NCBI GenBank assembly: GCA_018716875.1 | Contig: DVJJ01000143.1 | Location: 1 to 64,000 of the forward strand | Direction of reading: 5' to 3' | Source: Candidatus Avoscillospira avistercoris | GTDB taxonomy: Bacteria; Bacillota; Clostridia; Oscillospirales; Oscillospiraceae | DNA length: 64,000 bases | Shown here: positions 44,223 through 62,524 of the stretch, in pieces | Numbering within the stretch: position 1 is the stretch's first letter | How the letters are laid out: every line of letters begins with the position of its first letter | Position numbers and translations under genes: made by a program | Notes under the pieces: generated by a model | What the model was told of the DNA's origin: nothing | Seen by the model: the letters and a program-made list of their open reading frames with translations, nothing else | The model's database searches: none

Positions 44223-44253
44223 GGAAACGGCCCGATGCCGGGGAAGCATCGGG
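44223..44253. repeat. 31-bp direct repeat copy 1 (hairpin-forming)
   Basis: ggaaacggcccgatgccggggaagcatcggg. Confidence 0.95.
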
Positions 44254-44313: not shown

Positions 44314-44404
44314 ATTGAACGCGCAGGGAGCCTTGCCCCCTGCACACATCCCCCGCTGCTCTGTCGCTGTTCCACTCCGCGTTGTATGTCACTTTTGCCG
44401 GACA

Positions 44405-44519
44405 ACGGGAAACGGCCCGATGCCGGGGAAGCATCGGGCCGTTTCCTTGGAAAAAAGAAAGAGAAAGAAAAGAGGGGTTACCAGAACCGTGAGCCGAGGG
44501 GGCAGCTCCCGGTTTGGAT
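44405..44519 (-). ncRNA. Candidate small RNA A
   Basis: Downstream of a phased-repeat promoter; hairpin CCAAACCG...CGGTTCTGG, C/U tract CCCCTCTTTTCTTTCTCTTTCTTTTTT, then strong hairpin 44408-44446. Confidence 0.5.
44408..44438. repeat. 31-bp direct repeat copy 2; extends to a perfect hairpin ending at 44446
   Basis: Same 31 bp; ggaaacggcccgatgc / gcatcgggccgtttcc. Confidence 0.95.
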
Positions 44520-44525
44520 GGTGTC

Positions 44526-44579
44526 AGTATACGGTACAAATTTGAACAAGGTGTTAATAATTCAGAAAAATTTTGAAAA
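44526..44579 (-). promoter_or_regulatory. Phased-repeat promoter A (PhoB/OmpR-type box candidate)
   Basis: TTTTCAAAATT-TTTCTGAATTA-TTAACACCTTG-TTCAAATTTGTACCG-TATACT; no -35 hexamer. Confidence 0.6.
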
Positions 44580-44671
44580 CCTGTTTCAAATGGGGTGTTC
44601 AAGGCTGTCACGCAGCGGGCCGCCCTCCCACGAAATCCTCCGCGGGTTCCCGCCGTCCCCTGCCTGGAACA
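44566..44671 (-). ncRNA. Candidate small RNA C
   Basis: Closing stem GTGTTCCAGGC/GCCTTGAACAC (44662-44672 with 44595-44605) starting at the predicted +1; tail hairpin TTTGAAA-CAGGT-TTTCAAA-ATTTTT at 44566-44590. Confidence 0.55.
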
Positions 44672-44677
44672 CTTATG

Positions 44678-44731
44678 ATTTTAGGGGGCAGATTTGAACA
44701 GCCTATGAAGCAATTGAAAAGAAATTGGAAA
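44678..44731 (-). promoter_or_regulatory. Phased-repeat promoter C (PhoB/OmpR-type box candidate)
   Basis: TTTCCAATTTC-TTTTCAATTGC-TTCATAGGCTG-TTCAAATCTGCCCCC-TAAAAT; no -35 hexamer. Confidence 0.6.
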
Positions 44732-44757
44732 CATCTTCTGTTTTTTCCGGACAGAGT

Positions 44758-44901
44758 GCGCGCCCGGCGGAGAGCATCCGCCGGGCGCGTGTCGTGTTTG
44801 AAGAAAGAGAAAAGAGGAGAATAAGATGAGTCAAAGAGGAAGTCTACCGTCGGCTCCCCGGTCAATGCTGTCCGGGCCGGTAAACTGTATTTCCTTTTGA
44901 C
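44758..44901 (-). ncRNA. Candidate small RNA B
   Basis: Hairpin region ACCGGCCCGG...CCGGGGAGCCGACGGT, C/U tract CTCCTCTTTTCTCTTTCTTC, GC hairpin gcgcccggcgga/tccgccgggcgc (44760-44788). Confidence 0.5.
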
Positions 44902-44907
44902 ACCCTT

Positions 44908-44961
44908 AGTATAGTCCGCAATTTTGAATGAATCGTGAACGATTCCAAAACAAATTTTGAA
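44908..44961 (-). promoter_or_regulatory. Phased-repeat promoter B (PhoB/OmpR-type box candidate)
   Basis: TTCAAAATTTG-TTTTGGAATCG-TTCACGATTCA-TTCAAAATTGCGGAC-TATACT; exact 11-bp phasing; no -35 hexamer. Confidence 0.65.
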
Positions 44962-61285: not shown

Positions 61286-62524
61286 TTACTTGGCAAAGAC
61301 CTTCTTCAGGTTGCAGAAACGGGGCAGACCGTCCTCCTTGACCATGGGGGTCTCACCCTGGATCAGAGGCAGGCAGTAGTTGATGAAGTCCTCGGTGACA
61401 TAGTTGCCCTCGGCGTTGATCCACTCCTTGGGGAACTTCTTCTCAAAGTTGGCCACCTTGTCCAGATCGAACAGCTTGGTCTTGCAGGTGTAGCCGTTGG
61501 TACGGTCACACTCGAAGCCCACCATCTTGCCGGTCTCACCAGCCACAGCGGCCTCAACAGCGGTCTTGCCAGAGTTGAAGGACTCCTGGATGTCGTTGCC
61601 GGAAGCGCAGTGGGCGGCGCAGCGCTGCAGCAGGCTCAGCTCGATACCGCGGACCTTGGCGCCGGTCTTCTCCTTGATGACGTTGGCCAGCAGAGCAGCC
61701 AGACCGCCCAGCTGGGCATGGCCGAAGCCATCGGTGCCGGAGGTCTTGGCCTCGGCAACAAAGGTGCCGTCGGCGTAGTGGACGCCCTCGGAGACAGCCA
61801 CAATGCAGTTTTTGTTCTTCTCATAGCGGGCGGAGACATCGGCCACGAACTTGTCCATGTCGAAGTCCACCTCGGGCAGGTAGATGAAGTCGGGGCCATC
61901 GCCCTTGATGCCGGCCAGAGCGGCAGCGGCAGTCAGCCAGCCGGCGTGACGGCCCATGCACTCGATGATGGTGACCATGCCGGTGTCATAGACGTGGGCA
62001 TCGCGGCTGACCTCCATAAAGGAAGTGGCGATATACTTGGCGGCGGAGGAGAAGCCGGGGCAGTGGTCGGTGCCGAACAGGTCGTTGTCGATGGTCTTGG
62101 GCACACCCATCACGCGGCACTCATAGCCAACCTTGGCCATGTAGCGGGAAACCTTCTCACAGGTATCCATGGAGTCGTTGCCGCCGTTGTAGAAGAAGTA
62201 ACGGATGTTGTACTTCTTGAAGATCTCCAGGATGCGCTTGTAATCGGTCTCATCCTCATCGGGATCAGCGATCTTGTAGCGGCAGGAGCCCAGGGCGGAA
62301 GAGGGGGTGTACAGCAGGCGCTCCAGCTCCGCCGGGTCCTCCTGGTCCATGATCATCAGCTCGTCGTTGAGCACGCCCTTGATGCCGTGGTGGGCGCCGT
62401 AGACGGTGGTGATGTTCTCATTCTCCAGAGCGGTCTTGATGACGCCGTATGCACTGGCGTTGATGACCGAGGAGGGGCCGCCGGACTGGCCGATGACGCA
62501 TGCGCCCTTGAGTACAGTAGACAT
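61286..62524 (-). CDS. Phosphofructokinase, PPi-type signature
   Basis: CVIGQSGGPSSVINAS; GGNDS (Asp at the donor-specificity position); PKTIDNDLFGTD. Confidence 0.9.
   Translation of the reverse strand: MSTVLKGACVIGQSGGPSSVINASAYGVIKTALENENITTVYGAHHGIKGVLNDELMIMDQEDPAELERLLYTPSSALGSCRYKIADPDEDETDYKRILEIFKKYNIRYFFYNGGNDSMDTCEKVSRYMAKVGYECRVMGVPKTIDNDLFGTDHCPGFSSAAKYIATSFMEVSRDAHVYDTGMVTIIECMGRHAGWLTAAAALAGIKGDGPDFIYLPEVDFDMDKFVADVSARYEKNKNCIVAVSEGVHYADGTFVAEAKTSGTDGFGHAQLGGLAALLANVIKEKTGAKVRGIELSLLQRCAAHCASGNDIQESFNSGKTAVEAAVAGETGKMVGFECDRTNGYTCKTKLFDLDKVANFEKKFPKEWINAEGNYVTEDFINYCLPLIQGETPMVKEDGLPRFCNLKKVFAK

Follow-up and report, generated by a model that had tools for sequence, protein, structure and literature searches.

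Three tandem promoters with 11-bp-phased repeats in an Oscillospiraceae genome, and their candidate anti-Shine-Dalgarno small RNAs in a probable stress regulon

Gut Oscillospiraceae are abundant and mostly uncultured, and their regulatory RNAs are barely known; a literature search on regulatory RNAs of this family found no paper. The DNA analyzed here (64,000 nucleotides of Candidatus Avoscillospira avistercoris, hereafter the window) carries three neighboring minus-strand promoter boxes, which raise the question of what they express and which regulator and stress they answer to. An Rfam scan of the window matched no family, and a tRNA scan found nothing. The initial annotation described three four-repeat boxes, and these are present letter by letter where it placed them. 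In each, as it also claimed, TTCAAA begins exactly 15 nt ahead of the -10 element (TATACT in B and A, TAAAAT in C), and a search of the region for sigma-70 -35/-10 pairs found none, in line with the reported lack of a usable -35. The boxes, read from the sequence and scored with a profile, are:

44908 to 44961, minus strand: box B, four 11-bp-phased TTC units and the -10 element TATACT (profile match 64 bits; kept in genus genomes G001 to G006).
44678 to 44731, minus strand: box C, four 11-bp-phased units and the -10 element TAAAAT (profile match 45 bits; ortholog in G004).
44526 to 44579, minus strand: box A, four 11-bp-phased units and the -10 element TATACT (profile match 49 bits).

The PhoB/PhoP Pho boxes are 11-bp direct repeats that take the place of a -35 element. 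The proposal that the repeats in the window act in the same way, in the style of the OmpR/PhoB family, is supported by what appears to be an activator-type layout. The composite pattern TTYN8TTHAN7TTCAAAN9TANNNT describes three TT-units at 11-bp intervals, with TTCAAA as the final one, followed after 9 nt by TANNNT. It occurs three times in the 64-kb window, every time at this cluster, compared to no match in 100 dinucleotide shuffles of the window, and 22 times in seven genus genomes compared to none for the reversed control. Spacing of TTC units in homologous sites outside the genus peaks at 11, 22, and 33 bp. Nearly every genus site also has a purine followed by TC(C)AAA 7 nt past the -10 element, which fits a fixed, predicted transcription start.

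Most to nearly all genus sites are followed by a 5' hairpin, which a CU-rich anti-Shine-Dalgarno linker separates from a GC-rich terminator-like hairpin. CCTC, CTCC, or TCTC is present in 38 of 39 CU tracts, and CAU ahead of the tract is only mildly enriched (21 of 39, compared to 13.3 expected). The corresponding features in the window are:

44758 to 44901, minus strand: candidate small RNA B (144 nt), with a 5' hairpin from the predicted start GTCAAAAGG, a CU-rich linker, and a GC-rich terminator-like hairpin (fold z -5.3 against shuffles; compensatory changes in the genus).
44801 to 44828, minus strand: linker of B, CATCTTATTCTCCTCTTTTCTCTTTCTT, the complement of an ideal Shine-Dalgarno sequence plus AUG (near-invariant in the genus).
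44759 to 44789, minus strand: terminator-like hairpin of B, lacking a clear U-tail (covaries within the genus).
44572 to 44671, minus strand: candidate RNA C, with a GGAGG-containing 5' hairpin, CCCGCGGAGGATTTCGYGGG, and no CU linker; its end is uncertain and it may run into RNA A (weak fold, z -1.0).
44408 to 44519, minus strand: candidate small RNA A (112 nt), with a 5' hairpin from ATCCAAACC, a CU-rich linker, and a terminator-like hairpin (fold z -5.5 against shuffles; orthologs G004:C81 and G001:C112).
44449 to 44477, minus strand: CU-rich linker of A, CCCCTCTTTTCTTTCTCTTTCTTTTTTCC, seen in the sequence.

The promoter and RNA of B are found again in six other genus genomes with differing gene neighborhoods, and an exact search with the linker of B returned six uncultured Oscillospiraceae assemblies. 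The linker, whose reverse complement AAGAAAGAGAAAAGAGGAGAATAAGATG forms an ideal Shine-Dalgarno sequence plus AUG, is the best-conserved part of the RNA. Covariation was evaluated in eight B-type sequences, using an alignment that was not structure-fitted but a structure taken from one of them. Across the hairpin core and terminator stem, 93.6% of cells are paired and nine pairs have changed on both sides; the double-changed cells number 21, compared to 7.6+-2.1 in shuffles and at most 6 in slid structures. On the plus strand, a small ORF that begins within the linker's complement, behind a perfect Shine-Dalgarno sequence, was considered and rejected; neither its frame nor its sequence is conserved. 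The original call of small RNAs rather than ORFs is supported. A search for mRNA targets with the linker complement gave scattered single matches and no recurrent gene.

RNAs A and B fit the plan of hairpin, CU linker, and terminator-like hairpin fully, while C fits it more weakly. The claim of a distinct small RNA behind each box holds for B (z -5.3) and A (z -5.5) and is weaker for C, whose fold does not reach significance in the window (z -1.0) and for which no good terminator of its own was found there. Because the hairpins of A and B have no clear U-tail, termination at these sites is a prediction. The promoter and hairpin of C are conserved in G004, where the ortholog runs on to a terminator-like hairpin; the hairpin is also partly common to the RNA of G001:C125. 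On the best reading of the sequence, at least two of the three promoters would drive small RNAs suited to block ribosome-binding sites. The terminator-like hairpin of A (CCCGATGCTTCCCCGGCATCGGGCCGTTTCC, 44408-44446) has a second copy about 190 bp downstream (44223-44253), and GCGGAGTGGAACAGCGACAGAGCAGCGGGGG (44333-44367, minus strand) belongs to a repeat that is dispersed in many copies through G003, G006, and the window's own genome.

Conservation in relatives extends to the cluster as a whole; G003 and G006 have B, C, and A in the same succession, and so does the strongly diverged G004. Members absent from the window's own genome (G000) mean little because its assembly is fragmented and 82.7% complete. 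Another small RNA of the same family in that genome (L097, G000:C16:1115-1186, plus strand) has orthologs in G003:C6 and G006:C39. Two further box-driven candidates lie divergently, back to back, in G003:C2 (L095; 62071-62138 on the minus strand and 62146-62210 on the plus strand).

Beyond the genus, the box profile (sequence-only, built from 16 genus sites, with rough E-values) has matches in 238 of the 401 genomes of the family at E<=0.05 and, order-wide, in 37 of 297 genomes at E<=0.001, many of the single matches being weak. Sixty-three sites outside the genus were inspected individually, and 20 of them precede a protein gene by rule; one more (L184) was recognized by hand. At the 43 sites classed by rule as non-protein, a tract of at least 21 pyrimidines in 24 nt is present in 29 (control 2.9%), a strong hairpin in 37 (control 10%), and both together in 26 (control 0.5%). 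In another family of the order, four closely similar small RNAs, each with its own box, CU linker, and hairpin, lie in tandem within ~0.9 kb (L235, G607:C50). The regulon part of the claimed regulon-like cluster is supported. The cluster is not unique; it is one locus of a regulon that extends through the family and into parts of the order.

Proteins encoded behind the box indicate what kind of regulon this may be. By Pfam, those outside the genus comprise nine HtrA-type proteases, five Hsp20 proteins (including L089, assigned by its resemblance to L157), two ClpB-type Clp_N/AAA proteins, and one FKBP/trigger-factor-like lipoprotein, along with HlyD and VTT proteins. HtrA is the commonest protein target. 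Within the genus, a strong box precedes htrA in G001:C169, and weaker profile matches lie just upstream of htrA in G000, G003, G004, G005, G006, and G001:C45. The htrA promoters of the genus have the box at the 15-nt spacing to the -10 element that is seen at the small RNA genes; in the window's own genome the promoter sequence is TTCATATTTTTTTCATAATTGTTGCATATCAT, with the spacing of boxes A, B, and C. The sharing of the box with htrA, hsp20, and clpB is, like the boxes themselves, their conservation, the RNA architecture, and the covariation, a computational result. The stress regulon that had been proposed is supported by the position of the box ahead of genes predicted to encode HtrA, Hsp20, ClpB, and response regulators. 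At two loci (L173 and L190), the box precedes a 163-aa membrane-type protein family with no Pfam match.

Genes for a response regulator, a kinase, and HtrA adjoin in G000, G001, G003, G004, and G006. The regulator promoter in this cluster has two 11-bp-phased units (a half box, TTTACAAATTG-TTCACC or a close variant) in five of five genomes, which is consistent with self-control. The htrA gene of the cluster has a full four-unit box in G001:C45, in a register 26 nt (15+11) before the -10 element, and only a degenerate box site in G000, G003, and G006. OmpR-family regulator matches number 10-22 per genome in the genus, and this regulator is assignable to the OmpR family only, scoring below every curated NCBIfam cut-off shown. 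In the other family of the order, a box also lies ahead of a response-regulator gene; its product was compared with the htrA-linked regulator, and no orthology was evident. Because the two candidates are not evident orthologs, the box-binding protein can be named only provisionally.

Phosphate limitation was the inducing condition originally suggested, with PhoB/PhoP binding the boxes and inducing the RNAs when phosphate is short. PhoB-type regulators do bind 11-bp repeats, a pst promoter (L051) has TTTACA 15 nt before TATCAT, and a response-regulator gene lies downstream of pstS. However, the box goes with HtrA, Hsp20, and ClpB, and a box-profile search of the pstS promoters of five genus genomes gave no match. 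We reject this reading as very unlikely because those promoters carry other elements (TTTTACA/TTTAACA) and do not match the profile. The repeated elements in the genus pstS promoters (L051-L055) are themselves likely PhoB boxes. A CtsR-type heat-shock repressor acting on direct repeats is the least probable explanation. In its favor, the genes for Hsp20 and ClpB belong to the classic heat-shock set, and direct repeats with TCAAA are recognized by CtsR as well; however, HtrA outnumbers the other protein targets, and the units are fourfold, 11 bp apart, and in an activator position. No pairs of the CtsR-type heptad GGTCAAA are present among 40 sites. No CtsR protein was found in the seven genus genomes, in a search of limited sensitivity because its control missed Bacillus subtilis too.

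The same stress regulon could also operate with RNAs that bind proteins or serve as decoys instead of pairing with Shine-Dalgarno sequences. The conservation of the 5' hairpin core of B (ACCGG...GGAGCCGACGGT) exceeds what mere stability needs, C has GGAGG hairpins and lacks a CU linker, and the target search with the B linker yielded nothing recurrent. Against this, the linker is the part of B that is kept best, it is CU-rich in nearly all members, and 38 of the 39 tracts have one of the motifs CCTC, CTCC, and TCTC, so we regard such a role as improbable for the family.

A tandem cluster of trans-acting anti-Shine-Dalgarno small RNA genes driven by a stress regulator is the best explanation, and we consider it probable. 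We infer the course of binding, induction, and pairing as follows. An OmpR/PhoB-family response regulator, most likely the one encoded beside the kinase and htrA (G000:C6), would bind the four 11-bp direct repeats as tandem dimers in place of a -35 element and recruit sigma-A polymerase to the -10 box, which lies 15 nt downstream of where the last repeat begins. The signal would most likely be misfolded secreted or membrane protein. Under stress, HtrA would rise (in relatives also Hsp20 and ClpB), as would a group of short RNAs that would hold a CU-rich stretch of 20-30 nt single-stranded between the 5' hairpin and the terminator-like hairpin. This stretch would pair with the Shine-Dalgarno regions of target mRNAs (in B, with AUG too), lowering translation of the targets, presumably exported proteins. 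For a wider proposal the balance is even: that Oscillospiraceae and relatives share an undescribed, order-wide regulon, in which a single regulator of envelope or protein-folding stress governs HtrA, Hsp20, and ClpB plus fast-evolving, often tandem anti-Shine-Dalgarno RNAs that arose independently of the streptococcal csRNAs, and in which RNA C could sponge the CU-rich members through GGAGG. If true, Oscillospiraceae would gain a whole small RNA regulon with promoters that can be read as a code, a probable inducing stress, and a mechanism open to testing.

Among known systems, Pho boxes share the 11-bp direct repeats that replace the -35 element, whereas the unit sequence and target genes differ here. 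CssRS of Bacillus subtilis is a two-component secretion-stress system that raises HtrA proteases (PMC4812647). The regulator-kinase-htrA cluster with its box elements is similar, with a full box at the htrA gene of G001:C45; no small RNA arm of CssRS was found in a literature search. The apparently undescribed stress network of the window resembles one in streptococci. There, the OmpR-family regulator CiaR acts on the repeat TTTAAG-N5-TTTAAG, placed about 10 nt ahead of the -10 element, and each csRNA has two stem-loops that flank an unpaired anti-SD/anti-AUG stretch (PMC3091779); several are present per genome, sometimes in tandem (PMC8186281), and CiaR also controls htrA and ciaRH itself (PMC8317062). 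Shared features are several short RNAs, some in tandem, an 11-bp direct repeat before the -10 element, and an unpaired stretch complementary to the Shine-Dalgarno sequence with a stem-loop on either side, as seen in A, B, and the majority of the family. The box of the small RNA genes also lies at htrA promoters of the genus and family, and one regulator may act on both. In contrast, the boxes agree in spacing only. The repeats are TTCAAA/TTCACA/TTCATA rather than TTTAAG, present fourfold and ending 9 nt short of the -10 element; the CU-rich linkers are long, the regulon extends to hsp20 and clpB, and the host belongs to a different order. The likeness seen is one of layout. Because the box differs and the likeness does not rest on orthology, we do not class the system with the csRNAs. 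If the proposed mechanism is correct, this suggests that an HtrA-controlling two-component system and anti-Shine-Dalgarno RNAs have been coupled more than once in Firmicutes.
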